DNA from: Lutjanus erythropterus
Lineage: Eukaryota; Chordata; Actinopteri; Lutjaniformes; Lutjanidae
Assembly (NCBI GenBank): GCA_020091685.1
Contig: CM034602.1
Location: forward strand, 3,272,380 to 3,336,379
Reading direction: 5' to 3'
Length of the DNA: 64,000 bases
The notes under the pieces were generated by a model. It searched no databases, had not been told where the DNA came from, and worked only from the letters and a program-made list of their open reading frames with translations. Of this stretch, positions 32,401-56,700 are shown piece by piece. Each line of letters starts with the position of its first letter. Position 1 is the first letter of the stretch. The position numbers were made by a program, and so were the translations under genes.

Positions 32401-34047
32401 ACACAATGGGGAGTTTCATGTTAAATTGATCTCCAGGTACCCAGCTTTCAGATGATGTGTACCACTTCTGTGTGCCATATACTGTTGACCTGCTATCCCC
32501 CCAAAGATCTCCTGTCCTCACCAAAAAAAAAAGGCAAAATAAGTGTATGGTAGGGAGGGGTGGAGTGGAGGAGGTTAAAGCCAAAAGAGCTGTGTAACGT
32601 CACGGTCTAAAATTAAATGAAACGTTGTAATTACCGATAATACAGAAAGCCAAAAAAATCAAGCAGCGAAAGGCTGGGTAACGGGTTATCTCGGCTAACA
32701 TCTCGATGTAGCTACAGCTGCTAGCAGCAGTTAACGTTAGCAAATAGTTGGCTGCCATAATGTTAGCAAACCTGGGTTAAAAAGTTACCAGATTAACGAG
32801 CTGTCTAAAGCCTCGTATGGTGAATTGTGGTTCTGAACTGTTACGCCTGCATGATGGCAAATTTTGTGGTCAATTTTACATTTAGCCGCTAGCTAACTTA
32901 GTCCAGATGCACGACGACTGTTAGCGTCTGGAACTGCGCTCATAAGCTGCCCGATTACCGTTATACCTCACTGATAAATCATTGACAACAAGCAAAACAA
33001 AACTTTTCAAGTTAATCTGCAAGAACTGTGTCTTCTTGTAAATTCGGCTCATGAAATGTTCCATAAAGCGACGTTTATTTCAGCGGTTTCCCATTGTTTT
33101 TTCTGCTAATCAACGTCACACTGCTCCAATCTGGTGTACATAATGAGAGACGTTTAACACAAGAAATATGAAGAGACACGATTCAAAAACTTGTAGGTCT
33201 TACAGAAAATACGCACTTTTCGTGCCATTGTATGTACGCCGAATTGACAGGACGATCGCGTAGATGCTAAAAATGTGGTCAATCCTGTTATAAAATACCC
33301 GTCATACTGAATATGATATCATAGGTAATGAATTGGTGATTTTTTGACCGGCATTTAGCGTGACGTTCTCTCAATACAAAGGCTAGTCTAGAAGGGAACC
33401 CCAGACCCGGGAAAAACCTCGCGAGAATCAAAATTTTAACCCAAACCATTATATTTTCCTACCAATAACCAAGGGTTTTCTTTGCCTAAATCTCCCTATG
33501 TTTAAAACATATATTATAAAACATAACAAGTTTTAACACAACGCACAGCGAGGAACTAACCCTTACAAATCTCGCGAGAGTTTTACAAAGCAAGGGTTCC
33601 CTTCTAGACAGGACTCTGGCTAACGGTGGCAGCAACCGTTAGCTGGTCGGTTCAGCAGGCAGTCACACCCTGCTTCTTTCCCTGCCAACACAGGACACCG
33701 TCTCGCTATTTTACCTCTTTCTTATCCTGGAGACACTCCAGCACCGCCAGGTTGTTGTTCCAGGAATGTTTGGGGCAAAGCCGGGTCAGGTCGTCCCTGC
33801 ACACCGCCTCCTCAGCCAACTTCCAGCCGGTAGAGCGCCTCCGAGGCAGCGAGGCCCCAGCGCCCAGGTTCCTCTCAGCGGCTCCCGGGTTCACCGCAGC
33901 CGGCCCCGGTCCTCCGGCTGGATTCTGTGGGATTTCGGCTTTAGGTCCAAGTCTGGGGACATTGTTGTTTTCTCCATGAATTGGATGCACAGACGACAAG
34001 ATGCACATCAAAAGCAGGAGCAGAGGAACACGTATACAGTCCGCCAT
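997..34047 (-). CDS. glg1: Golgi glycoprotein 1 (cysteine-rich FGF receptor, E-selectin ligand 1), 5' part of gene
   Basis: Eleven coding exons in consistent phase: 34047-33715, 16326-16297, 14947-14861, 11578-11363, 7929-7726, 6476-6405, 5869-5683, 3896-3682, 3363-3242, 1491-1390, 1150-997. They encode about 574 residues: a signal peptide (residues 1 to about 25, MADCIRVPLLLLL...), a short Pro/Gly/Ala-rich linker, then successive Cys-rich GLG1 repeats with the family pattern (GWKLAEE, LLWNYKLNLTTDPKFES, YRLICGFMDKC, SSDDFHLDR, CQGDAARLCHTHGWNETSE). Vertebrate GLG1 is a type I membrane protein of about 1,150-1,200 residues in the Golgi that binds FGFs, E-selectin and TGF-beta precursors. The remaining repeats and the C-terminal membrane segment lie beyond the left edge. 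All splice sites are GT-AG and no frame breaks are seen. The start ATG at 34047 has A at -3 and G at +4. Recognition is from protein similarity known to me; boundaries are inferred from splice signals and phase. Confidence 0.95.
1390..1491 (-). CDS. glg1: glg1 coding exon 10
   Basis: 102 nt: completes Met489, then ILSCLMEHLYTEKMVEDCEH and RLLELQYFIARDW (residues 490-522), then AA of Lys523. Acceptor TGCAG, donor GTAAGT. Confidence 0.94.
1889..2296. mobile_element. short inverted-repeat transposon (CAGGTTTTC ends)
   Basis: Begins ACAGGTTTTCTGCAGGTC and ends GAGGAAAACCTG, with TTTAAGAC-rich subterminal sequence. Related to 13418-13712, which has the same TTTAAGACTTTTTAAGACC subterminal pattern. 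Non-autonomous, no coding capacity. Confidence 0.5.
2548..2912 (+). repeat. dispersed repeat, copy B
   Basis: Partner of 121-400, with about 60 bp more in the middle (CCTCCAGTGTAACAGAGAGC region). Lies in glg1 intron 9. Family not identified. Confidence 0.6.
3242..3363 (-). CDS. glg1: glg1 coding exon 9
   Basis: 122 nt encoding LQTLIQEADPGADYRIDRAL and NEACESVIQTACKHIRNGDP (residues 449-488), then AT of Met489. Acceptor CACAG, donor GTGAGT. Phase 2 end fits the one-base start of exon 10. Confidence 0.94.
3682..3896 (-). CDS. glg1: glg1 coding exon 8 (Cys-rich repeat)
   Basis: 215 nt completing Gly377 and encoding residues 378-448, including VVSGECQGEMMDYRRMLMED and CSGLHRKGRTLHCLMRVGRG. Acceptor TTCAG, donor GTGAGT, phase 0 at the end. 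Close match to GLG1. Confidence 0.94.
3897..5682. other. glg1 intron 7
   Basis: Short AC run at 3902-3927, a TTCCACCGCAGGAACTTTCC-containing repeat near 4138-4250, then the nested repeat at 4660-5345. No gene. Confidence 0.6.
4660..5345 (+). repeat. dispersed repeat with a nested insertion
   Basis: 4660-4970 and about 5290-5345 match 37780-38115 (shared ATTTTATTTTTGA, TATATTTTGTGG and AAAGTTCCTTG). About 4972-5290, starting AGGGTTGGGTGATGTC, is absent from the other copy and so looks inserted. In glg1 intron 7. Confidence 0.5.
5683..5869 (-). CDS. glg1: glg1 coding exon 7 (Cys-rich repeat)
   Basis: 187 nt: CREALTTRQKLIAQDYKVSY ... EARLSYLLLCLESAVHR plus the first base of Gly377. Acceptor CTCAG, donor GTAAAC. 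Ends in phase 1, matching the two-base start of exon 8. Confidence 0.94.
5978..6275. mobile_element. GCTGCAACTAA-type hAT-like MITE (copy 1)
   Basis: Starts near ACTGCAACTAAATTATTTTCA and carries the family internal pieces (TATAAAACGTC, TTTGTCC, TTTACTGTCATGAA, AAGAAGCTGGAAATA, GATTAACAAATTA). Assigned to a common teleost non-autonomous family whose consensus ends are AGGGCTGCAACTAAC. Superfamily from memory. Confidence 0.5.
6405..6476 (-). CDS. glg1: glg1 coding exon 6 (72 nt)
   Basis: 72 nt encoding residues 291-314, including GEGRVYKCLFNHKFEEAMSE (human GEGRVYKCLFNHKFEESMSE). Acceptor TCCAG, donor GTGAGT, phase 0. Too short to stand out as an open reading frame; placed by phase and homology. 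Confidence 0.92.
6477..7725. other. glg1 intron 5
   Basis: AT-rich, with a pyrimidine-rich tract at about 6825-6930. No gene or clear repeat recognised. Confidence 0.55.
7726..7929 (-). CDS. glg1: glg1 coding exon 5 (Cys-rich repeats)
   Basis: 204 nt, 68 codons (residues 223-290): DIHSQGEVIACLEKGLVREA then AELSSDDFHLDRYLYFACRD and ending ERFCEN. Close match to GLG1. Acceptor TGCAG, donor GTGAGG, phase 0. Confidence 0.95.
7930..11362. other. glg1 intron 4
   Basis: AT-rich, with the (AAT)n tract near 10050 and a diverged repeat near 10110-10350 (ACTTTAAAGTTCTGGTACTG) like one near 4600. No gene. Confidence 0.55.
9968..10085 (+). repeat. unclassified tract ending in (AAT)n
   Basis: A run of AAT units at about 10047-10080 follows a stretch of unclear origin in glg1 intron 4. 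Confidence 0.35.
11363..11578 (-). CDS. glg1: glg1 coding exon 4 (Cys-rich repeats)
   Basis: 216 nt, 72 codons (residues 151-222), starting IKECAAEELGKGYLVSCLVD and ending CGSISTGEK. Cysteine spacing and the sequences HRGNISDYQC and FSDYRLICGFMDKC match GLG1. Acceptor CTCAG, donor GTGAGT, phase 0. Confidence 0.95.
13418..13712. mobile_element. short inverted-repeat transposon, second copy
   Basis: TTTCTACAAG ... CATTTAAGACTTTTTAAGACC at one end and AAGACATTTTAAGG ... GGACCTACAGAAAC at the other, as in 1889-2296. In glg1 intron 3. Confidence 0.45.
14376..14676. mobile_element. GCTGCAACTAA-type hAT-like MITE (copy 2, well preserved)
   Basis: Starts GGGCTGCAACTAACTATTAT and ends AATCACTACAGCTCTTG. 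Full set of internal pieces, including GTTTACTGTCATAGAGGAGT and AGAAGCTGAAATCAGAGAAT. In glg1 intron 3. Confidence 0.6.
14861..14947 (-). CDS. glg1: glg1 coding exon 3
   Basis: 87 nt encoding LLWNYKLNLTTDPKFES plus VAVEVCKTTISE (residues 122-150), nearly identical to the human protein at this place. Acceptor CCAG, donor GTCAGT, phase 0. Contains the N-linked glycosylation sequon NLT. Confidence 0.94.
14993..15019 (+). repeat. (AC)n microsatellite
   Basis: Uninterrupted AC run of 27 nt in glg1 intron 2, about 45 bp upstream of exon 3 on the transcript. Confidence 0.95.
15424..15467 (+). repeat. (AAT)n microsatellite
   Basis: About 14 uninterrupted AAT units in glg1 intron 2. Confidence 0.9.
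16297..16326 (-). CDS. glg1: glg1 coding exon 2 (30-nt small exon)
   Basis: A 30-nt exon encoding ETEIAAECNH (residues 112-121), matching ENEISSDCNH of human GLG1. A pyrimidine-rich tract and AG precede it, and donor GTAAGT follows. Phase 0 on both sides. Too short to appear as an open reading frame; found by joining exon 1 to exon 3 in frame. Confidence 0.92.
17217..17259 (+). repeat. (TG)n microsatellite
   Basis: Pure TG run, glg1 intron 1. A second TG run follows at 17369-17399. Confidence 0.95.
17369..17510 (+). repeat. (TG)n then (GGT/GGGT)n tract
   Basis: TG run at 17369-17399, then a G-rich GGT/GGGGT tract at about 17453-17510 (potential G-quadruplex). glg1 intron 1. Confidence 0.85.
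19970..20300. mobile_element. GCTGCAACTAA-type MITE (degenerate copy 3)
   Basis: TTAATTAATCGCTGTTTGGTTTATAAAAATGTCAGAAAA plus a TTATCGATTAATCC end identify it; the middle is diverged. glg1 intron 1. Confidence 0.45.
20708..20795 (+). repeat. dispersed repeat (pair member 1)
   Basis: Shares TTATTGGAAATGTCTGGATC and CCACCACTGGAATCTA with 42815-42895, in the same orientation. Family not identified. Confidence 0.55.
21907..22337. mobile_element. short inverted-repeat transposon (CCCCTTTTCCA ends)
   Basis: Begins AGTACCCCTTTTCCAT and ends AGTGGAAAAGCCCCAC, typical of a widespread teleost non-autonomous element. No transposase. glg1 intron 1. Confidence 0.5.
24752..25222. mobile_element. Tc1/mariner-like remnant
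   Basis: One end AACTGCCAAAAGTATGTGGA (24754 on) and internal pieces at 24868-24893 and 25110-25210 (complement: GTTGCCACAAAGTTGG, GTCAAGTTCTTCCACACC, GGCTCTGTGC) match a common teleost Tc1-like transposon. Much is deleted and no transposase frame is left. Recognised from memory of the family. Confidence 0.6.
24901..25104 (+). mobile_element. LINE 3' tail inside the Tc1 remnant
   Basis: TGCTGTAACACTGCCAATTC, GTGTGGGACTAATGAAGGAT and a TCTTA-type repeat tail are typical of the 3' end of teleost LINEs, placed between pieces of the Tc1 remnant. Confidence 0.5.
28430..28690. mobile_element. GCTGCAACTAA-type MITE (very degenerate copy 4)
   Basis: Weak likeness only: AAAGCAGCAAATTTGAGAGATTGG and GTAGCTGATTAATTTTC. 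glg1 intron 1. Confidence 0.3.
31881..32184. mobile_element. short transposon with GTGCAGCCCT end
   Basis: Ends TTAACTGTGCAGCCCT, and carries a start-side AGAGTTGGACAATTTGG and ACTGCGATTATTTTTATTG, as in the teleost GCTGCACGATT family. glg1 intron 1. Confidence 0.4.
33386..33609. mobile_element. inverted-repeat element with paired CTCGCGAGA motifs
   Basis: The 16-bp ends GTCTAGAAGGGAACCC (33386-33401) and its exact complement (33594-33609) bound 224 bp. Inside each arm is a CTCGCGAGA core: 33418-33426, and a full TCTCGCGAGA at 33570-33579. The latter is the consensus of the BANP/ZBTB33-type promoter motif. About 100-330 bp into glg1 intron 1. A MITE or a promoter palindrome; no clear target-site duplication seen. 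Confidence 0.6.
33715..34047 (-). CDS. glg1: glg1 coding exon 1 (signal peptide, start of first Cys-rich repeat)
   Basis: Encodes residues 1-111. The ATG at 34047-34045 sits in a good Kozak context (AAGATGG) and is followed by a Leu-rich hydrophobic signal sequence, a variable Pro/Gly/Ala linker, then the conserved stretch GWKLAEEAVCRDDLTRLCPK and NNLAVLECLQDKKE. Donor GTAAAA follows at 33714. Phase 0. The linker is much shorter than the Gln-rich linker of human GLG1. Confidence 0.93.
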
Positions 34048-34802
34048 CTTCACAGAGCCAGTCAGCCTGCTGCTGCATTCAGGAACTGTGGGAAATATGG
34101 GTTCTAGGAGTAAAGTTGCAGACGGATTTTTTTTTTCTTTCTAGGATGGCTGTGGACTGCTCATGAATAATTAATGAGCGCGTGTAGGTTCATCCAATCA
34201 CACAACACAACCACCACGGAAACGTCATCTCCTGGCATTGCTTACTTTAATGGAATGAATAAAAAATAAACACTGAACATTTTCTATAGTAGTATTTGCA
34301 CAACAGCTAAATTTTGATGCAGACACCAGCATGATACTTCTTTTTTTTTAACCTAAGATTGAGAAATATAAATATGCTGTTCAACAAACCCCTTTTCATA
34401 AAAAAAAAAAACATTAAACTTTGGTTGAATGATATATCATTTCTTGAATCACCTGTTTGCACAAAATAACTTACTGATGAAAAGATTTGGTGTTTGTCAT
34501 ATGTCAACCGATAAGTTACAAGAAATGTAAGTTATGTAATTAGAAACCACAAATACAACAATTCAAAATATAAATTGGACATTATATTGAAACATTAAGA
34601 GTCAGCTAATGGGAACGCTCCCCCACCTAAAGTTACATCCATGAACCGATTTATCTGCATGGTGGGAGGGCGTAACGCACAACGCTATTGGGTACTGTAA
34701 ATGCCAATCAATATCTGGGACAAGTCCCTCCCTAGCTGCTGATTTTACAGGAAACATGTAGGCTATAAGCTCCACTCACCATTTCATGGCAACTTCAACC
34801 AT

Positions 34803-38977: not shown

Positions 38978-39079
<102 letters not shown>

Positions 39080-39142
39080 CATCGTCTCCTCGTTCTCTGG
39101 GACTGTGTGTGAGAGGTTTTTATTCTCCAGTTTCCGTCTCCT

Positions 39143-39282
39143 TCACTCCCACCTGTAGATCTTCAGCATCTTCTCCGTGAGCGAGGCCAGGAAGTGCTCG
39201 TTGTTCACAGAACGGACTGATGTCCAACACTGGGAGGTCGGCGGAGCTTCTGCAGCAGAGAGCCGCTGCCTGCGTCCCACAC
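39143..39282 (-). CDS. rfwd3: rfwd3 last coding exon, with two apparent frame shifts
   Basis: Opens in the expected phase as [13 protein letters not shown] (human LWDAASGSLLQDL). The family sequence then continues in a second frame (PVLDISPF, near 39238-39212) and in a third ([20 protein letters not shown], about 39208-39146), ending at a TGA at 39145-39143. Two losses of 2 bp, or two gains of 1 bp, near 39238-39243 and 39206-39212 explain this. Read literally, translation ends at TGA 39207-39205. Either a sequence or assembly error or a real change to the last WD40 blade. Acceptor CTCAG is preceded by a long CTC/TCC repeat. Confidence 0.88.
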
Positions 39283-42105
39283 CTGAGGAGGAGGAGGAGG
39301 ACTGCGGGAGGAGGAGGAGGAGGAGGAGGAGGAGGAGGAGGAAGAGGAAGAGGAAGAGGAGGAAGATACAGTAGGAGGAGGGAGACAAGAGTTCAGATGA
39401 AAATGGAAGATGAGACAGAAGTGGAGGAAGACGATGATGAGAAAGAATTTTATTAGGCAACTTTAGGCTCTTTCAAATGAAAAAGAAACAAATAATCAAA
39501 TTGAAATTAATTGAAAGAAATCTTTAGATAAATTTATGGTCTCTGAAAGAAAAAAAAAACCTTTTAAATGTATATATTGCCCAATATCAGCCTACCACAG
39601 CTATAGCTTAGCATATTTTCTAATATTGGTATCAGCCTCAAAAATCCAGTGTTTGTTGGCTCTTCTTTTAAATAAGTCCCCCCAAAAATGAAAGACTTTG
39701 CATTAAGGACAGTAATTTGGAAGAATGGTCTCTCTAAAATGACAAAATAAAATACCATAACACTGTTCAATGTAAAAAAAAATTGTTTGAGGAATATATA
39801 TAAATACACTTTAATAAGCAAACATCAAAAAAGGAAAAGAAAACAAAAGGAATAAAATAAACTAAAAGAAAATATAATAAAAAGCTACATTCTGTTGATT
39901 AAGGATGTCAGTTTAGGTTAATTTTGCTTTCAGTAGCCTACACCCACTAACTAGCAACTAACCACTTAAAAAAAAATAAAATGAAGTAAAATACAAGAGG
40001 CACGTAGTCCAGCGCTCTCCTTCCTGTTGGCTTTGCTGAAATGTAGTCACTATTTTTCTGCTTTACAGCAGCACAAACATCAGGATCGCGCTGCGCTCAG
40101 TGACGCTCATCCTGCAGCTGGAGCACAGAAGCTGTCTGCCTAATTTGTTAATTAGGCTCCTGTTACACTAAAAAAAGCTGTTCTGAGTGACTGTTTGCTG
40201 TGCTTCTCTCTTTTAAGTTGGCTTGTGTAATGCTAACCCATCCACCACCCCAAACGCACTCGACCTCAGGGTTTGATGTGAACATATCAAAGTGTTAAAA
40301 TGTTAGACATCTTAAGATCAAAGTATACGCAACTCCATTTCTTCATTTTTTCATCAGGAATGCAGCTAAATGAAACAGTTCATTGTTGACCTTCTAAACT
40401 GTCCTGACCGCTCCTGATCTGTCCTCTCACACAAACACAAACAGGACTGACCATTGTAGAGTTGGAGGCCTCGTCTCCGGCGCAGACCAGGGTCCCGTCT
40501 CCATCTGGGCTCTTGAAAACGGCGTTCTTGGTGAGCAGTTTGCAGGACGAGCCGGCGCTGAACGTCTGCACTGGAGAGCAGGAGCAGATGGGCAGCTGGC
40601 TCGAGTCCTGCTGGGGCGTCCGGTTCAGAGACATGAGGACGCAGCGCAGAGACGGGTTGGAGCGTCCTGTGGGAGAGACGGGACGCTTCATGACACAACT
40701 GGCCTCCACGTTCAGATAAATTAAACTAACTACTGACTGCGCTTAGATGCACACTAGTATTGCCATCTTGGTTTTTCAGAGCCAAAAGTGGCCATATTTG
40801 GAAGAGAGGGTGGAGCTGGAGAGAGCTGTTTTGCCCAGATCTGACAGAGAACTCAAGGACACACTATGGTGGCACCGCCCTAAAGCATAGTCCAATTTAC
40901 TCTAAATGGGACCATAATTTACAAAATAAACATTATGCTTTATTGAAGAAGACTTTAAACTTGTGATTGAAACCAAAACTCATGAGGAAACTGTTTGTTG
41001 ACGTAAAAAATCAAGTGAGAAGTAGACAAATCTTCTCATAGACCCATTTACAATCAGACTCCTTTTTGCAACCAGTACGTTTGTCCCCTGCTGGCCATTA
41101 GAAAGAATGCAGAATGCAGGTCAGACCTGGAAGCCCCGCCCACTTGCTGTATTATACAGTCTACGTGTTCAGCTGAAATTGGTCCGATTGTTTTTGGTTG
41201 AGACATTGCAGTAATTTTTGTGTCGTATCAAAATGGTCAACTAATAGTAAAAAAAAAAAAGAATGGACTAAAGGAAACAAAAAAGAAACTTTGGGCACTT
41301 TTAATCATCACTGCTGCTGAAGTGATTCTTGAGCTGAAGCATCAGCTTGTGAAACTCTCTCTGATTTAAACAATTTCCTTTCTCATCAGCAGTGTCACAA
41401 TCATCTCTGCTTGAGGGCGGTTTTGTATTTTCTGAGTGTATAAATGTTTTTTTAAATGAGTTTTCAGAAAGACACAATTCAGTGCACAAGGTGAACAGGT
41501 TGCTTTTTGTTAAGAAGATCATCCTGTGTTAAGTTCTGGCAGTGTGTAGGCCGGTGTAGGGTTAGGGTCAGTGGGGTCAGGGTCTCACCTGGCCTGTAGG
41601 TGACCAGACAGTGTCGGCTCTCCGTCTCCACCTGGATGTCTGTGCAGCCGGCGTTCTCCAGCGGCAGGACATGAGGTCTGTACGTGGTCTCGTTGACCTG
41701 CTCCCAAAAACACCCACCCTCCAGAGAGCCGGCAATCAGCCCGCCGCAGGGGAACGAGCTGGACGCCGCTCGCGGGACATAGCACAGAGACGCCACCGGA
41801 CACCTGGAAACATTACAAGCTCAGTAAAGGATAGCTTTCTAGGAAAAACAAGCGGTGGGTAACTATTACTGTCAAAAAAGTCTACCTCATGTTTTAATGT
41901 GTGCATGTCTGTGTGTGTGTACCTGGAGCGAAGCGGCTGCAGCTCCTGGATGTGTGTGCTGGTGTCTCTGGTGTCGTAGACGAGCACGGACCCGTTGCTC
42001 AGACCTGCATAGACGTAGTTACTATTGTCCAAACACCAGCAGCAGCTCCATACAGGTTTACCTGTATTATAAGTCTGAACCACTGTGTTGGTGAGCAGAC
42101 TGCCA

Positions 42106-42177
<72 letters not shown>

Positions 42178-44239
42178 GTCCATTTATCACATGATAATAT
42201 TCATTCATTCTCATCATATCATCTGTGTGAATATGGAGAATTTAGAGCTTGTCTATGATCATTTAAAAAACACAGAAGAAAACACTACGGTTGTGTGTAT
42301 GTGTGTGTGTGTGTGTGTGTGTACCTGGTCAGTTTAATGGTGTTGTCCAGAGCAGCGGACAGCAGCAGACTGTCATTCTGCCTGTTGAAGGACAGACCTC
42401 GGATCTGTTTACTGTGGATGGGAATATACTGACTCGCCTTCATGTTGACGATGCTCACCTTCTTCACCCCACAGCCTGGAGGAGGAGACAGAGAGGTAAC
42501 CAGTGAGACCCTGAGTCAAGTCGGAGCTGGGTGACAATACAAGACGGGATCGCACCATCATCTGATTTTTCCCATCTTTCTATAGCTGGTGTTTCTCAGA
42601 ATTTAAAATATGTCCTTAAAATGGGACTACAGCAAAGGCCGTAAGGGTTCATTCTCTGAGGAGAAAGAATAAGCCTAATAAATTTCCTGGTTTTCTTCAT
42701 GTTAGCAGCCAGCTAGTCAACTGTGATTATCAAACTGATCAAACACAGAGAAAACACAGAATATTTCATTAGATAATAAGCCTTTTGCAATAAACTTTTG
42801 GACAGCACTCTGTAATTATTGGAAATGTCTGGATCACACAAGTCAAAACAATCCTTCACAACCACCACTGGAATCTACCTCTACCAACACACAGAATAAA
42901 TAGACATGAAAAGATTGAAAAAAAAAAAAAAAACTATATTGATTTAGAATTCAACAAAGCTTCCAGCTATTTGGAGCAGCCCTAGACCATGCCTTAGTTT
43001 TCATAACAGTCTATCTAGATGTGCTGCTCTGGAAAAAAGTGCGGGACTGACAGATGAACTAAACAATACTGCCATCTGCAGGCCGCTGAAGGAAGAAGAA
43101 GGAATGTCTCACCAGGCACCAGCGTGGAGTGGGGGGACGGCTGCGAGGCCAGCAGGCAGCTCAGAGGTTCACAGTAGGATAAAACCCTGGAGCCACCGGC
43201 CTGAGACACCAGCACCGCCTTGGAGAAACTGTACTGGGCTGTCCTGGAGCCGCCCGCCCGCTGAGACAGACCAAGGAGAAGCGAGGTTGATGGTGTGGAG
43301 GAGGACGAGGAGGAAGAGGAGGGAGCAGAGCTTCTACCAGCCTGGGCCATCAGAGCCCTCAGCTCCTGCACAGACAGCAAGGAGAGGAGAGGAGGGAAGA
43401 AAGAGGTTACATTTTAATCAGTCAACTAGGAATCTCTGAAAAGAAACATGATAGAGTTAAACAACAAAAAACAAACAGTGAAAGCCTTTTTACTGGGGTT
43501 GCAAATTTTGTGCTTGTTCTTTAACCGATAGCTGAAAACACTAACAATCGATCATTCATAATGAATACACAAAACATGCTTTTCTCTCTTGTTTCTCATT
43601 TTAAGTTTCCTTATTCAACAAACGACTCCAGGAGACAAAACAATGTCAAATTACAGCCAATTCTAGACTATGGATTCTTATTTTTTTAAGTGTCAAAACA
43701 TGATTCTTCTGACTATTCTGTCTATAAAATAAATACATAATATAAATAAGTAAATGGATGAACAAATTTGTAAAACTAAAATCTTAAATAATCTTTCAAA
43801 TTTGACTTTCTGTCATTCAGTTCTCTAATTTACTTACTGCCATTATCTGTCTCATAATTCGGAATATTTTATACGCAAAGAATTAATTCCACTGTCACAC
43901 TCAGGACTCTATTAATATTATGAATACTATTGCAAATTTCAAATGAAAATATGGTGCAAAAAACCTAAATTAAGCAAGTGATAATGCTCAATGTTGGACA
44001 CATTTTGGTAAGTACTAACAAGAAAGATCATGGTCAGATTCCCTTTAAGTTCAAACAGAAAAATAATCAAACCTAATTCAATTTCAGTGTTTCAGGAAAT
44101 AAGAAAAGAAGTCATCACTGATACCTGCAGCTCCTGTTGTGCTTGTCCATACTTGTTGGTGACGACCTGCAGTTTTAGTTTGTACTGAGCCGATTCCAGT
44201 TCAGCCTTCCTCCTCAGAGACTGTTCCTGCTCCAGAGAC

Positions 44240-44309
<70 letters not shown>

Positions 44310-47240
44310 AAAATGTTTTTTTTTAAGTTCACCAATGACATTACTAACATGGTAATCACTTAACCTGCATCATAAGAGAAGGTCAAGTTGTGTCAGTATT
44401 TTAGAAGAAATAAGACAGATCAGTTATCTTTGGGACAATAAAAAATATTCTTGAATAGTGACTTACTTACTTAACTTAGTAATATGAATACTTCTAATAA
44501 CCCTGGAGTGTGTTTTCCACCAATCCGCTCGTAATATGCTCACATTCTGTACATCATATTAGCTTTTCTTTTTAAGAGAGAATTTTTCAAAACTGCCAGT
44601 GGAGAAATGGGTGGGGTGCTGTTATGATTTTAGCATCTAATTATAAAAAATTCTGTAGTGAAAGAACAAGAAAGTGATGACAGATGTCAGCCGTAAAGAA
44701 AAACATCACTCACTTCTTTAAGCTCTCCTGCTCGGAGTTGTCGAGCGCTCTCAGTTTCGGAGCGTACAGCAGAACGATGTCGGAACGCTTTGCTTTCTTG
44801 TTGCACTACAGACAAACGACAGAAACGCATCATCATCATCAAAGTCCAGGTGAGAGAAGCAGGATATGACACCAGTGAGGGTTCAGAAAAAAGGACTGAA
44901 GCAACTTCCTGTTAAAAACAGTACCAGCACTGACCTGTGGACATTTAGCTGCCGGGCCCTGAGCTTTCAGCCAGCGCTGGATGCAGGTGAAGCCGAAGAG
45001 GTGTCCGCAGCGCAGAGCCGACAGTCTGTGTTCGCCCGCCGTCGTCCACGCCTCGAAGCAGATGGTGCAGTTTTCGCCTTCGCCCTCTTCGCCGGGTGAC
45101 AGCTGAACGGAGGCCGAGGCCACGGGGACCGGCTAGCAGGGGACATGAAAACAGTCTCAATCTACAGGGACACTAAAACATCATAAACTATATATGCAAA
45201 ATGAGGTTGGCCTAAGACTGAAACATTATCTTTTTAGCATTCAGACTGTCATGTTGCAACAGGTACAGACAAGATATTTAAGTTTAAAGCTTCACAAACA
45301 GGATTTTATAACATGAATAAATAATTAATTAAATGAATTACTGAAATGAATTATTTTTATCATCAATAAATTTACCAGTTATTTCCCCGATTAATCATTT
45401 GTTTATTGAATGTGGGGGAAAAAAATGCAAAAAATGTTCATCATAAGCTCATGTGTGCTCATGACTTCTTCAAATTGCTTCTTTTGTCCAACCAACAGTC
45501 CAAAACCACAAACATACTTCGTTCACTGCCATAAATGACAAAAAAAGCAGCAAATCCTCACATTTAAAAAGCTAAAACCACTGACCTTTTTGCTTGAAAA
45601 AAACAAAATTGACTAAAACCATTAACTGATTATCAAAATAGTTGCCAACTAATTTTCTAACTAATAGACTGACTGTTGCAGCTCTAGCCTGGACACTTTT
45701 GCTAAATGTCAGACCTTTGTAAATGTTGAGAGACTTTGGTCCATCTGGAACAACTCTTTAAAACACCAAAGTCTGGTTGTTTTGGAGAGAGTGATATTTG
45801 ACTTGTGTAACAGCAGCTGCCTGTCAGAAAAGGCTGTCTGATGTTCTACTAAATATTCTAAATATACTCCTGCTGCTTCTCCAAACTGGGACCATGTCGA
45901 TTGCCATCTACTGTAGATATTACACTGACTATTGACAAGTACCTCATACAAACACACTTCAAATAATCTGAACTATCCCGTTAAAACAAAGAAATACAAA
46001 AGACTGGACTTGTTGTACACAAATGAGTCTACAACACTCACCCTTCCCCCCATCTTGTGCAGTCTGACCATTGCTTCCTGTTCCTGATTCCAATCTGCAA
46101 ACTTCTCATCAGCAGAAAAGATCTGGACTAAGGACGTGACAACTTCATGGAAAACAACCCCTGCACCACATGGTGACGTGACAGGAACATCTGACTATTA
46201 ATAAAGTCACAACATGTCTGCTCCTGACCGACACCGCTCCCCCCTGATTCTTTGACTGATTCTTCCACTCCTCCAACAACGGATTAATGGGTGACAACCA
46301 GCCACCCACACACTAAAGCCACTGGACACAGGTATTTATCAGCTTCAGCTCCAAGCAGCAGTGATGGAAACACGCCTGATTGGACCCGATAACCGTGACA
46401 GAAAAGGTCTGAACATTACCTGGACGACCTGATTTGGAGCATCTGTCCTCTCGCCATCTGCAGTTGAACTGGAGTCTGAACACAGCAGGGAAAAAAAAAC
46501 ACAAAATCACACTGGACTCTCAGAACACAACACAGACTCTGTACTGGTCTGTAAAAACCAGTGGACAACATGCTGCTCAGACTCACTGGTTGGACCAGCT
46601 TCCTGTGGCTGTGTGTGTTGGCTGGAGGTGTTGAGGCGAGGGCTAGCCGGCGGCACAGGGTCGACAGGCTCGGCAGCAGCGGGTGCGGCTTCTTCATCAC
46701 CTTCCTCCTCTTCTTCCTCGTCAGACTCGCTGACCTCGGTGGTGCTGCCAGAGTCCGGCTCAGCCACGCTGGCAGCTGGCGCTCGGAGCAGGAAGTCTGG
46801 AAAGCCTCTGGAGGGCGCTGCGGTCTGGCTGGGGTAGTGCACCCTGAGACCTTGCCTGGAGCAACACACAAACACAGACAGGTTTACACTAAACTGTCTA
46901 CCAGAGGCCAGTTGGAAAATTTTTACCTATCGCCTAGCCCTAGTTCTGTGTACCTGAGTCTCCTCCGTATTGGTGCCCCCTGAGCAGCTGAAGGTGTGAC
47001 TGCAGAGCCGCCAACCGCTCTCTGACTGAACGCCCAGGTGGCAGGAAGTCTGGGCGGCACACGAGCTGCTGTCTGTCCTCCTTCAGTGTCATCATCATCA
47101 TCCTCGTCCACCTCTGTGCTGCTACCATAGTCTGAGATGACCTGTGGTTCGTTGGTGTCCTCGGCTGCAGCAGCGACCACGGGCTGTCCGCTGCCTCCTC
47201 CCTGCACCTCCACAGGGGAGTCCACCTCCATGGCCTCCAT
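39143..47240 (-). CDS. rfwd3: RING finger and WD repeat domain 3, E3 ubiquitin ligase
   Basis: Twelve coding exons: 47240-46954, 46855-46587, 46475-46420, 45132-44935, 44805-44714, 44239-44125, 43365-43113, 42475-42325, 42099-41923, 41803-41589, 40666-40452, 39282-39143. Domains: an acidic, Ser-rich N-terminus with SQ/TQ motifs (residues 1 to about 204), a RING finger (from Cys226: CTICFEAW ... [10 protein letters not shown] ... KCPQCNKK), a coiled coil (about 285-339), then a WD40 propeller to the C-terminus. In mammals RFWD3 ubiquitinates RPA and RAD51 at stalled forks and damaged DNA (FANCW) and stabilises p53. The first eleven coding exons read cleanly (676 codons). In the last exon the frame breaks twice, so literal translation stops at 39207-39205 after about 701 residues, where the family would give about 723 (human 774). 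Identification is secure; whether the C-terminus is truly broken is open. Confidence 0.93.
39283..39371 (+). repeat. (GAG)n/(GGA)n tract next to last rfwd3 exon
   Basis: GGA-rich triplet repeat that reads (CTC/TCC)n on the rfwd3 transcript and forms the pyrimidine tract of the last acceptor. Confidence 0.9.
40452..40666 (-). CDS. rfwd3: rfwd3 coding exon 11 (WD40)
   Basis: 215 nt: completes Gly605, then [60 protein letters not shown] and [11 protein letters not shown] (residues 606-676). Human has [30 protein letters not shown]. Acceptor CACAG, donor GTCAGT, phase 0. Confidence 0.95.
40740..41168 (+). repeat. dispersed repeat (GCCATCTTGG ... CCCCTGCTGGCCATTAG)
   Basis: Contains TTGCCATCTTGGTTTTTCAG and CCCTGCTGGCCATTAGAAAG, recurrent in teleost genomes. 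Lies in rfwd3 intron 11. Family name not certain. Confidence 0.4.
41589..41803 (-). CDS. rfwd3: rfwd3 coding exon 10 (WD40)
   Basis: 215 nt: completes Arg533, then [60 protein letters not shown] and [11 protein letters not shown]. Human has CPLVSLSYMPRAASAAFPYGG. Acceptor TCCAG, donor GTGAGA, phase 1. Confidence 0.95.
41923..42099 (-). CDS. rfwd3: rfwd3 coding exon 9 (WD40)
   Basis: 177 nt: [40 protein letters not shown] and [18 protein letters not shown], closely matching human [21 protein letters not shown]. The acceptor GGCAG sits a few bases after a long TG repeat; donor GTACAC runs into a second AC/TG stretch. Confidence 0.95.
42104..42177 (+). repeat. (CA)n microsatellite abutting rfwd3 coding exon 9 acceptor
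   Basis: Reads (TG)n on the transcript and ends a few bases before the AG at 42101-42100. Confidence 0.95.
42291..42322 (+). repeat. (TG)n microsatellite abutting rfwd3 coding exon 8 donor
   Basis: Reads (AC)n on the transcript, directly after the donor GTAC at 42324-42321. Confidence 0.9.
42325..42475 (-). CDS. rfwd3: rfwd3 coding exon 8 (WD40)
   Basis: 151 nt: completes Gly424, then [40 protein letters not shown] and ALDNTIKLT, plus two bases of Ser474. Human has MKSSQYIPMHGKQIRGLAF. Acceptor TCCAG; the donor GTACAC runs straight into an AC repeat. Confidence 0.95.
42815..42895 (+). repeat. dispersed repeat (pair member 2)
   Basis: Partner of 20708-20795; lies in rfwd3 intron 8. Confidence 0.55.
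43113..43365 (-). CDS. rfwd3: rfwd3 coding exon 7 (linker into WD40 propeller)
   Basis: 253 nt, residues 340-423 plus one base. Starts [13 protein letters not shown], runs through a poly-Ser stretch, then [20 protein letters not shown] and [20 protein letters not shown], matching human [29 protein letters not shown]. Acceptor TGCAG, donor GTGAGA. Confidence 0.94.
44125..44239 (-). CDS. rfwd3: rfwd3 coding exon 6 (coiled coil)
   Basis: 115 nt: completes Lys301, then [20 protein letters not shown] and [18 protein letters not shown] (residues 302-339), helical and coiled-coil-like; human has RKQAELESAQCRLQLQV. The acceptor AG is directly preceded by a TG repeat. Donor GTATCA, phase 0. Confidence 0.93.
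44242..44305 (+). repeat. (CA)n microsatellite forming rfwd3 coding exon 6 acceptor tract
   Basis: Reads (TG)n on the transcript and runs straight into the AG at 44241-44240. Confidence 0.95.
44714..44805 (-). CDS. rfwd3: rfwd3 coding exon 5 (end of RING, start of coiled coil)
   Basis: 92 nt: [20 protein letters not shown] then [10 protein letters not shown] plus two bases of Lys301. Human has CNKKARHSDIVVLYARTLRA. Acceptor TGTAG, donor GTGAGT. Confidence 0.94.
44935..45132 (-). CDS. rfwd3: rfwd3 coding exon 4 (RING finger)
   Basis: 198 nt, 66 codons (residues 205-270). Contains most of the [40 protein letters not shown] and KCPQ, very close to human ([24 protein letters not shown]). The last RING cysteine is in the next exon. 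Acceptor GCTAG, donor GTCAGT, phase 0. Confidence 0.95.
45133..46419. other. rfwd3 intron 4
   Basis: One MITE (45336-45691) and unique AT-rich DNA; no further exon found. Confidence 0.55.
45336..45691. mobile_element. GCTGCAACTAA-type MITE (copy 6)
   Basis: GATTAATCATTTGTTTATTG at one end and ACTGATTATCAAAATAGTTG ... GACTGTTGCAGCTCTAG at the other. rfwd3 intron 4. Confidence 0.5.
46420..46475 (-). CDS. rfwd3: rfwd3 coding exon 3 (56 nt)
   Basis: 56 nt joining in frame as [19 protein letters not shown] (residues 186-204). Acceptor TTCAG, donor GTAATG, ends in phase 0, as required by the RING exon that follows. No strong homology, so it rests on splice signals and phase. Confidence 0.75.
46587..46855 (-). 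CDS. rfwd3: rfwd3 coding exon 2 (low-complexity acidic region)
   Basis: 269 nt: completes Arg96 and encodes residues 97-185, with an acidic run [15 protein letters not shown], an Ala/Pro-rich run, and SQ/TQ motifs (YPSQ, SSQHTQ). Acceptor TCCAG, donor GTGAGT, phase 1. Poorly conserved in sequence, as expected of this part of RFWD3. Confidence 0.85.
46954..47240 (-). CDS. rfwd3: rfwd3 coding exon 1 (start codon, acidic N-terminus)
   Basis: The acceptor TGTGCAG is followed immediately by ATGGAGGCCATGGAGG, so the exon opens at the start codon ([13 protein letters not shown]; human MAHEAMEYDVQVQ). A second in-frame ATG lies at 47231. Encodes residues 1-95 plus two bases, including an acidic run ([11 protein letters not shown]) and FSQ. 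Donor GTACAC, phase 2. Confidence 0.88.
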
Positions 47241-50719: not shown

Positions 50720-53700
50720 CTGTGGAAGAGAAAAATACAGTCACAATTTATTTTGATATAATTTACAGAGATGCTGCTGTTACCACCTGTGAGCCCCTGG
50801 ATGCAGTTTACGACTCTGCTCTTAGATTCATCACATCATACCTACAGTATCCATCACTGTACTCTATAAAAAGAAATTGTGGACCAACACTGGCAATTAT
50901 TTATCTATAAAGCGAGCGCTCCTAAACAAATTACCAACTTACTTTACCTCACTGTTACACCTCAGGACAGGATCTTATCAAACCTGCTCTCAGGATTGGA
51001 TAACTTGAAATGCAATTTAAATCTTGAGTCTCTGATAACTTTATGAGAAATTCTAATATTCTTACATGTACATGCTTTAACTAGGAATAATCTGTTAGGG
51101 TTAGGGTTAGGGGTCTCATTATCTGTCTTATTTCTTATTATCGTTCTGTTTTTTCCTGTTTTGTTAGAAGATTGTATTGTAAAACACATTAAAACCATTA
51201 TGTTGTGTCATTTTTTCAGGGACCTGTACCAAACTAAGTTGTTGTTTTTTTTTAATCTAGAGAATGATGTGTTGTCCAGGACACCTCTGCAGCACCACAA
51301 TATTTGATTAAAAATGACATTTTGACACATATTTTGCCTTGACAAATATTGTGCATCCTGCAGTTTGGTAGACCATATTACAATTTCAATAAAGGTTTTG
51401 ATTAATTGCTCAGTGAAACAGCAAAGAGAGGATAAGACTGCAGTGCAGTGCAGCAGTATAGTTATGGCAGGAGTTGTTGGTCTACCACTGCCTTGAACGG
51501 TTAGTTTGTTTGCGCAACTTTGGCAAATCTGAAAAAATCCTGAAAAAACACCGAAGTCATATAATAACACAAACAAAGTAACCAATCGAGGCAGCGGTAG
51601 ACCAACAGCTTCTCGTTCTGTGAGATGAAACTGATGATTTTGTCAAAGCAGAGGGTGATATTTGACTGTGACAGTGATTGTATTTACCTCCAGCTGATGG
51701 TCTCTGGAAGCTGTCATAGGCCCGACAGGTGTCGATCAGATGTCCCAGATGTTCAGGACAGTCATCAGGGAGCGGCTCCTGATATTTCTCTTTGCACACT
51801 TTCTGATAGATATCGTGACTCGACCAACCTGGAAGAAAAGCGAGAACAAATCAAGAACAGAAGTCGAAGCCAATCATCACGTAGTTTACCTTAACTGTAT
51901 TAAGTATGTATTTAGAACACGGGAGCTGCTGGTCCACCACTGCCTCAATCTGTTAGTTTGTTTGTGTTGTTTGTGCGACTTTGTAAAATCTGAGAAAACA
52001 CGTTAAACCACTGAAGTCACACAATAACACAAACAATCTAACCAATCAGCAGCGGTAGACCAGCAACTCTTGTGTTCTGTGAGGTAAAATTGATGTTTTA
52101 TGATCCGTAACCTTAATTAACAGTTTTCTGAGTTTTAATGTTTGCCTGCATGGTAGGTAACATGCAAAAGACAATGAACTGCTCTCATTGGACCATCCTG
52201 CATAAATAAAAGCTGAATGAATGAGCAAATTAAAAAATTAATGATTTCGATAGTAGTGATTATAAATAATTGTCAAACAGAACACCAAGATTTCTTGCAA
52301 AAAAACAGATTCTCTAACATGGAACTATTAGACCTCTGTCTCTCTATTAGTTCTCTGTCAAAGAGGAAACTTCACAGCTGCCTGTGAAGTCTAAAGCAGG
52401 TGAGAGCTTGATGCTGAGAACCGTGTGTTTGACTGGATGTTGATCGCTGTGTTCTGCAGATACTCACCATCAAATGGTCTCTTCCGGGTTGCAACTTCCC
52501 ACAGGACGATTCCAAAGCTGAAAGACAACATTTACAAGTTAGTGAGTGCTGTTTTTATTTTATTTTATTTTATTTTATTAAAGTTGCCCTCCAGTCAAAA
52601 ACGTGTCTGTGCTGAGTTTGACACTAGAGGACTGTTTTTACATTCATCTGCTGAAGGGGGAAAGTTTCTCTGATCTCCGCTTAAACCTCAGTTTAACACC
52701 TGGGTGCACCTGCAGGATTCTGTGACATCACAACTAGTTTGGGACCAATCACAGTTCAGTATGTAACTTTAATATGTGTGATGTGTCCAGTAGTTAAACA
52801 TTTGCAATGACCAATAAGAATGCAAACAACTATGTTAATAATTTTAATGTTGTCATTAATAAATCATTTACTAATGCTTTACATAAACCATTAATAAGAA
52901 GAACACCTGGGTTGCCAGGTTGGTGTTTAATCCCCTCCAGCAGGACATTTACTTTGTCCAGCTGGAGACCCACTAATGAACTGTTTGAGTGTTTGGAAAA
53001 CATCTGCAGAGCATCTGGACCAAAAATAATTTATTAGCAACTTAATAGCATTTACAACTGCAAAACTGATTTTAAGTAAAAGTAGTAATACTACACTGTA
53101 AGAAAAAATATTCACTACAAGTAAAAGTCCTGCAGTGAAAATGCTACTTAAGTGAAAGTATGTAGGTATAAACATGAAAATGTGAAAAGTATTAAAAGTA
53201 AAAGCACTCAGAGCAAAAAAATATTGTATATGATGTCATTAGATGATTCTGACTCATGCATTAATGTAAAAGCGGGATTTTTCTGTTGCAGTTGGTTAAT
53301 TAATAATTAGAGTAATTGGTTGGTTGGTATCTGACCTGTACATCTCACACTCTTTGCTGTACTTGTGGTTGATGTCGTTGAGCATCTGAGGAGGAGAGTA
53401 ACACAGCGTCCTGATCTCTTTGTCCTTCGTTGACTTCTTCAGTGACGTCTCGGTTTTTGCCAACTCAAAACCTCCCAGCTGAACACAAAAACGACAATGA
53501 CGTCAAGGCTCTATTCATTTTCACCAGCCCCTTAAATCCCAACATGCACTGGCCTCCGTACCTTGACTGTGTAGCCTTTAGCCACGAGGAACTTGCTGCT
53601 GTTGATGCATCCATGAACCTTGGATTTTATTTCTGTCTGGTGCAGTCTAAGAGACAACAGCGATAATCATCATTACAGCCCTTTCGGTCATAAAAAAAAT

Positions 53701-56700
53701 GATGTAACAACAAGAAGAAAACAAGAAGAAATGGAGACTTGAACGTGGAGAAAAAATGAGGTTCAGTTAGATTTGCACAGAAAAAGTCATCCTGGAACCT
53801 TCAGAAAGCAACTTTTTACTTTTACAATTTGAGTAAACTTCAGAACCTGCAATTTTTCACTTTTACTGCAGTAAAGAAACTGAATTAGTACTGCAAGTCT
53901 TTGTTTTACACAAGTGTCTGTAACACCCCATTACCATGACTCACATCCAAAATGTTAGATGCAAAACAGAATTTTACTTCTTTATAATTTTCTGCGCTCT
54001 CTGTTTCATAATGTCTCCTACACGTCAAAGAGACAGACGTACTGTACAGAGTTACTGTCGACTGACCTGTAGAGTCCTTTTGCTGCGTCCAGACACATAC
54101 AAGCTTTCCTGGTCCAGGACAGCTTGCAGTCAGAGTCCAGAACCTGCCGCAGACTTCCCTTCTCGCAGTACTCCATGATGATGAGGAACTGAGGGCTGGG
54201 TCCTGCAGGCGGTCACAAGGTCACATCATCATCATCATGACTCATCACTTTAAAGGTGCATTGTGCCTGATATTATGTCGCTCACCGTCCTCGTCCTTGA
54301 CACAGATGCCGAACATTCGCAGGATGTTGGGCGACTCAAACCGCCTCATGGTTTCAACTTCCTTATTGAAAACAGACCGCACTTCCCTACACATGGAGAC
54401 AGTGTTTGTTTGGACAATGAATATGGGACAGTTTCACTCGGTCACAAAGGAGCAGTGTACACAAGTCTAAATCTTGATTCATATTTTTTAAACTCTCTAA
54501 ATTGTTTGTCCCCAGTTTAAGCAACAAATGCTGGGAGATTATCCTCGGTGTTTATTGAGGAAAAGGTTTGGAGACTGACTATTGAATCTAAGTGCCTCAT
54601 CATTTGAAACGTACGGCCAGGCTGCAGAATTTAACAAACTGGGAGTGGGAACATATCAGATAGTGGGACCTTCTGGTTGTAACAAATCCAGAGTTTAAAC
54701 TTTGCACAGGCAGGAATAATGATGGTAAAGAAAAAGTAAAAAGTAAAATCATAACAGCATTATTCTCCAATTTTCCTATTTTCCTGCATTTTAATTCAGT
54801 ACTGTCCTGAAATGTGGTACAGACTTTGGGCTGGTGTTCAGTGAGTCGATGTATCTCTTGATGGCCACCGAGAATCCGCGGTACTCTCCTCTGTAGACCT
54901 CTGAGGTCGGCGTCGTCATGAAGGGCTTTTTGGGATGTTCATACTGCAGCTCGTCTGGTCTGATCATCCGGATGACTTCATCAGTGATGCTGGGCTTATC
55001 CACTGTAAAAACACATGGACACAAGTTAATCTGATACCTGCCATGCGACTTGTTAAAATGTCCTTTTAACCAGTAAGGGGTGATTTTTTTGGCCACCTGG
55101 GGGCAGCAGATACAAGTCTTGAACCATCATTGACTTATTATGACCTTTAAAGCTGCTTCTTTCCAAGTGGGACGTAAATAAATACAAATACTTTACTGTA
55201 CTTAAGATTTTCAGGTATCTGTACATATTTTGCTGACAACTTTTAATCTTTACTCCCTGAATTTTAACACAAATATCTGTACTTTCTATTCCAGGCTTGT
55301 TACTTCAGTTTTTAATGTATTATGTTTAATGTTTAGTGTAATTTTTCATTATTTTTTTTGCATCATTGTGCACTGCCTTCCCAAAATCAAGACTGATTTC
55401 AGCCTAAATGGATGAGACAATGAAAAAGATGAAAAAGCTGCGACAGGACTAAAAACAAAGAAAAAGACGGAACAAGACAAAAAACAACAGAACAAAAAAA
55501 GCAATATGCAATAATGCAATAACTTGAAAAACAATGTAAAAGACGTTAACAAAACAAAAGAACAATGTAAAAAACATACAGTATCCTGAGCGCAGTCGGA
55601 CCTTATATTAGAGCGACCCACTTGTGACGCATGTTTGTGTTTTATATTGTTTTAGGTTTCCATCCTGAACACTGAACAGGACAGCTGAAGTGAAGGAAAC
55701 GGGGAAAGAGGAAGTCTGAACAGGTTTGAGAGTGAGAGCAAGCTGAAAACGCGTGATGAACCAGGGAAAGAAACACGTCAAACAACCAATCAGAGCAAAG
55801 TGAAGCAAGCCGACTCACTGTGTCTGCAGTCAGCAGCTGGGCGAGCTCGAGGGAGAAAAGTCATTTTTTAAACACAACTCTACATTTATTCATGCTTCAC
55901 AGAATAACAGACACTAAAAATACCAGCGGATTAAAAATACTATAAATTGTATTAGTATCAGTCTTGCTTTGCTTCTTCTACAGTAACAACACTGATGCAG
56001 AAGCTTGTGTGTCTGTAAAGTTGTTTTCCCACAGAATCATACTGACATATGAGTGTTTACTCACAGATGTCCACGACTTTTTCCACGTTGAGTTTGACTT
56101 CTTCAAATTGTCTCAGCATGGCGTCAGTTTTCTCCTGCTGCTCCTTCATGTAGTCCAGGAGCACTGAGGGACAAACACTGATGAAACAGACCAGCCTCTC
56201 CGCTCTGATATAATTTGACCAGTTGAAGAGTGCTGTGAAACCTCTAGTTGAAACTGTTGACATAAATAAAGATGGACGCCCCGTCTCTAATTCCTTCCTC
56301 TGTGCAAAAATGAAGCCAAAATATCCCAGATATGAGTGCCGCCAAAAATGAATGCTTGAACAAACATTGGAGTGATAAGAACTACCTAAAATCACAGAGA
56401 CCATCTGTGGGAAAAAATTTAATTGACATGTAATTTGATGTTTTAGGCCCATCTGCTAACATTAAGGGGGCGGAGTTTATGACTTATATTGCAGCCAGCC
56501 ACCAGGGAGCGATTGCGATGTTTTGGCTTAACTTTCAGGGAGCTGTCATGTTGTACACTCTATGTATGTCAGTGGTTGAAACACACAAATGTTGAAACAC
56601 ATTTTACTTTTTCCGGACAGAATTTATGCCCCGCAGTCCTTCTATTGACCCTACAAAGAATAAATCCTTGCAGGAGAATTTGCTTTGGGATTAATAAAGT

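Follow-up and report, generated by a model that had tools for sequence, protein, structure and literature searches.

The window, a 64-kb stretch of DNA, holds mlkl, rfwd3 and a gene of Cys-rich repeats consistent with glg1, the name that we assume for it here; all three lie on the minus strand. The mlkl gene was recognized by a Pfam match to MLKL_N at 57287-56742, and Cys_rich_FGFR was found in five of the six stretches tried from the glg1-like gene. Overall, 10 stretches were spot-checked against Pfam (6 from glg1, 3 from mlkl and 1 from rfwd3, its RING), and 8 of them matched at E<=0.01, one of which, 51557-51850, falls under Pfam's own cut-off. The stretches 33706-34140 and 54791-55126 gave no Pfam match at E<=0.01. 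Judging from its gene content, the window appears to resemble teleost DNA. RFWD3 and MLKL have been described as neighbours (PMC11476962). Searches of the window with Rfam (gathering threshold) and for tRNA genes returned no match.

To establish the identity of rfwd3, we compared its protein with known domains and structures. A RING finger (Pfam) was found upstream of a WD40 domain, and the best solved-structure match by far was the WD40 domain of human RFWD3 (FANCW; PDB 6cvz), as expected of an RFWD3 orthologue. The joined fish WD40 part matched 6cvz with an E value of 5e-115, and 157 of 249 residues in the intact WD40 exons were identical; the foreign tail of the literally translated last exon fell outside the match. 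Unlike human RFWD3, the window sequence of the gene is unreadable in one frame through the last exon. A search for protein relatives of exons F-G gave 3 stretches in viral_contigs and 38 in genome_contigs that fitted the pattern, none of which was confirmed, as expected for a fish gene.

Eight rfwd3 exons upstream of the last one, named A to H, were checked for phase on the minus strand. They are exon A (44935-45132), which carries the RING finger recognized by Pfam; exon B (44714-44805); exon C (44125-44239), presumably coiled-coil-like by the label of human RFWD3; exon D (43113-43365); exon E (42325-42475); exon F (41923-42099); exon G (41589-41803); and the penultimate exon H (40452-40666). 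All 8 are bounded by AG/GT, their phases are consistent, and when joined they give 1,416 bp, or 472 codons, free of stops. The exons upstream of the RING were read by eye, and the linker from about 46568 to 45132 lies outside the phase check. An earlier note on this DNA had called every other coding exon of the three genes intact. For rfwd3 exons A to H this holds in full; for glg1 and mlkl it extends to the 10-stretch Pfam spot-check (the rfwd3 RING included), which covered part of their exons and met no frame break.

The last coding exon of rfwd3 (39143-39282, minus strand) is 140 bp long and contains two frame breaks, as seen by frame reading and by frameshift-aware alignment. It is entered from exon H in phase 0, with the acceptor in the correct phase. 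Segment 1 (39241-39282) continues the gene's own frame for 14 residues, 10 of which are identical to human; segment 2 (39210-39236) lies in a second frame and encodes LPVLDISPF (7/9 identical); and segment 3 (39143-39205) lies in a third frame, with 20 residues (12 identical) followed by the normal stop. At each of the two joins, 39237-39240 and 39206-39209, 4 bases stand against two human residues in the alignment, so that the exon is 4 bases below the human length. All three conserved pieces are therefore present, and yet no single frame reads through to the complete C-terminus. Read literally, the gene product has 14 native residues from this exon plus 11 foreign ones and ends at a TGA at 39207-39205. 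Frame reading thus bore out the coordinates, the three frames and the literal stop that the earlier note had described.

We then aligned the exon to human RFWD3 while allowing frameshifts. In agreement with the two breaks claimed earlier, the alignment put them at 39240 and 39209, and these positions were identical under 4 of 4 frameshift penalties. At a penalty of 20 the score was 126, compared with 40 when no frameshift was allowed. In 300 controls, in which the bases after codon 14 were shuffled, the mean score was 20 (s.d. 9.9) and the maximum 53. Since the observed score far exceeds the shuffle maximum and the same break bases are chosen under all 4 penalties, the frame breaks are a real feature of this sequence and not a product of chance. 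With X placed at both breaks, the last exon aligns without gaps, in the last-exon part, to human residues 728-774. The alignment did not pick the possible alternative of a single surplus base at each break, which would give a protein two residues shorter than human.

In human RFWD3, substitution of I639 by Lys causes Fanconi anaemia (PMC5459755). I639K and W543A each abolish RPA binding, and of the six repeats predicted, I639 is assigned to the fourth (Feeney et al., PMC5459755). The last blade had been proposed earlier to hold this RPA-binding, Fanconi-mutated region, which proved incorrect. With human residues numbered on 6cvz at a chain offset of 423, alignment placed W543 in exon F, where the Trp is conserved in fish, and I639 in exon G, both of them intact, whereas the last exon covers human residues 728-774. 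A truncation at this point would be expected to act through loss of the propeller end rather than through loss of W543 or I639. At the I639 position itself, the fish residue aligned to human is Thr.

The exon is flanked by simple repeats. On its upstream side an imperfect GAG/CTC array (39285-39363), located in the acceptor tract, ends 3 bp from the exon; on the other side a perfect CA/TG array of 97 bp, or 48.5 units (38979-39075), lies 68 bp past the normal stop. The earlier remark that the breaks lie beside an unstable CTC repeat was thus correct and, if anything, understated. Among the nine rfwd3 exons checked, only the last has an array within 70 bp of each of its ends. Other CA/TG arrays, at 42104-42177, 42292-42322 and 44242-44306, lie 3-5 bp from exons C, E and F, all of which are in an intact frame.

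To look for signs of decay, we compared the exon before and after the breaks with the rest of the gene. Past the breaks, 19/29 residues were identical to human, compared with 157/249 in the intact WD40 exons. Segments 1, 2 and 3 (14, 9 and 21 codons) had a third-position GC of 86, 78 and 95%, respectively; the value for exons A-H was 73%, and past codon 14 the literal frame gave 37.5%. When 15 random substitutions were simulated in the two later segments, identity fell from 19 to about 13/29 on average, and an in-frame stop appeared in 40% of 2,000 runs; long decay of the exon end is therefore unlikely. An old loss is likewise disfavoured, because identity and third-position GC are kept, the normal stop is still present and exons A-H are free of lesions. 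The gene does not look like a unitary pseudogene: exons A-H are clean, with those upstream of the RING judged by eye, and conservation is kept past the breaks. The chance that two random hits would both fall in the last exon over the 1,556 bp checked was 0.008, a post hoc value that speaks to clustering and not to cause. A sequence error should leave conservation and codon composition as they are seen here, the same on either side of the breaks, and a very young allele is equally expected to show this pattern.

Taking these features together, we consider it probable that this is an ordinary working rfwd3 and that both breaks are local consensus errors, each two bases short, for which we infer a technical cause. 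The exon is squeezed between the CTC array and the long CA array. Near such arrays, read alignment, consensus calling and polishing would tend to be weak, so short indels may survive. Each such error would leave the exon two bases short, and the animal's own exon would most likely encode the normal 47 residues that close the WD40 domain. Several observations count against a consensus error. Exons C, E and F are 3-5 bp from dinucleotide arrays and still intact, and the GC content of the last exon (59%) does not exceed the values of several intact ones (63-66% in exons A, D, G and H). The lesions also look like two-base changes, whereas long-read errors are usually of the single-base homopolymer type. 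Furthermore, earlier Illumina-based assemblies, one of them of a fish, had far fewer frameshift errors, according to the accessible part of PMC9516821.

The main rival is that the sequence is correct and that the sampled haplotype is a young loss-of-function allele whose protein lacks human residues 742-774. A stop in the last exon spares a messenger from nonsense-mediated decay, so the transcript should persist and would yield a protein whose propeller is incomplete and which would be expected to lose its fold. Under this explanation the frames stand as read, one of the lesions falls at a TGTG spot, a plausible site for unit loss by slippage, and the undiminished conservation fits as well as it does with an error. 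It requires, however, that a single young haplotype acquired two separate indels, 31 bp from each other, while the 1,416 bp upstream stayed free of lesions, and we regard it as unlikely. Error is favoured over a young allele because two separate lesions 31 bp apart fall in the last exon, which alone among the nine is closely flanked by arrays at both ends. A real truncation that has become fixed in the species or lineage, where RFWD3 works or is tolerated without its WD40 end, would fit a literal frame that is open as far as the last-exon stop and a gene otherwise intact in exons A-H, as in a working shortened protein. But the region past the literal stop is conserved like the rest and the normal stop is kept, neither of which is expected of sequence long untranslated, and we find such fixation distinctly improbable. 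It is just as doubtful that a teleost lineage has a genuine, recent RFWD3 lacking the propeller end, whose messenger escapes decay and whose open-propeller product is tolerated as a Fanconi-pathway ligase.

Duplicate genes are frequent in teleosts, and the window might mix two gene copies or show a decaying duplicate, with an intact rfwd3 elsewhere. This seems very improbable, given that exons A-H carry no lesion, that blastn over the 64-kb window revealed no duplicate of the exon, and that mlkl and the glg1-like gene adjoin rfwd3, RFWD3 and MLKL being described as neighbours in the accessible part of PMC11476962. We also considered that the exon is unused and that the protein is completed by a different last exon or splice site. 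The acceptor is present in the right phase, and blastn in the window gave no second exon copy. Conserved blocks 2 and 3 sit in different frames, so they cannot both be read from any one alternative splice site; alternative splicing was rejected for this reason, and an unused exon appears extremely improbable.

The earlier note had left the choice between a local sequence error and a real truncation. Two clustered lesions between arrays and the lack of any sign of decay favour the former, short of proof; the RFWD3 protein has probably not truly lost its end. Similar cases have been described in vertebrate assemblies, where short non-triplet indels in coding sequence create false frameshifts (PMC8081667, PMC9516821). 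As far as the available text of these two papers goes, such errors are linked to consensus calling and uneven polishing in one (PMC8081667) and to GC-rich sequence in the other (PMC9516821). Before polishing, the commonest errors were short indels introduced at consensus calling, which led to frameshifts, and an unpolished locus with frameshifts in TLK1 was shown (PMC8081667, in the part available). In the accessible portion of PMC9516821, the false indels of earlier bird assemblies are linked to 5' gene regions rich in GC, and false introns of 1-2 bp are reported that were made to compensate for them. Unlike those cases, rfwd3 carries its two lesions within a single last exon flanked by tandem arrays, and here the consensus sequence stands alone.

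If the cause is technical, as is likely, a conserved repair gene looks truncated because its last exon sits between two simple repeats, and automatic annotation could log a false loss of rfwd3. If the truncation is real, it would let one ask in a natural setting whether RFWD3 still functions when its WD40 end is missing. A truncated fish RFWD3 was not found in the literature searched (rfwd3 with zebrafish, teleost, and I639K/WD40), as represented by the accessible parts of the articles, which is no proof of its absence from print. Among the papers returned, RFWD3 serves as a PCR marker in one (PMC5932013, in the part available) and, in the available text of another (PMC9439954), is named only in the reference list.

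Downstream of the normal stop, we noticed an AATAAA on the minus strand (39119-39124), a candidate poly(A) signal by motif match, 19 bases past the stop. The TG-rich 97-bp array starts 44 bases beyond it (span 38979-39124, minus strand). On these motif matches one may speculate that the 3' UTR of rfwd3 is very short, with the TG array standing in for a GU-rich downstream element.
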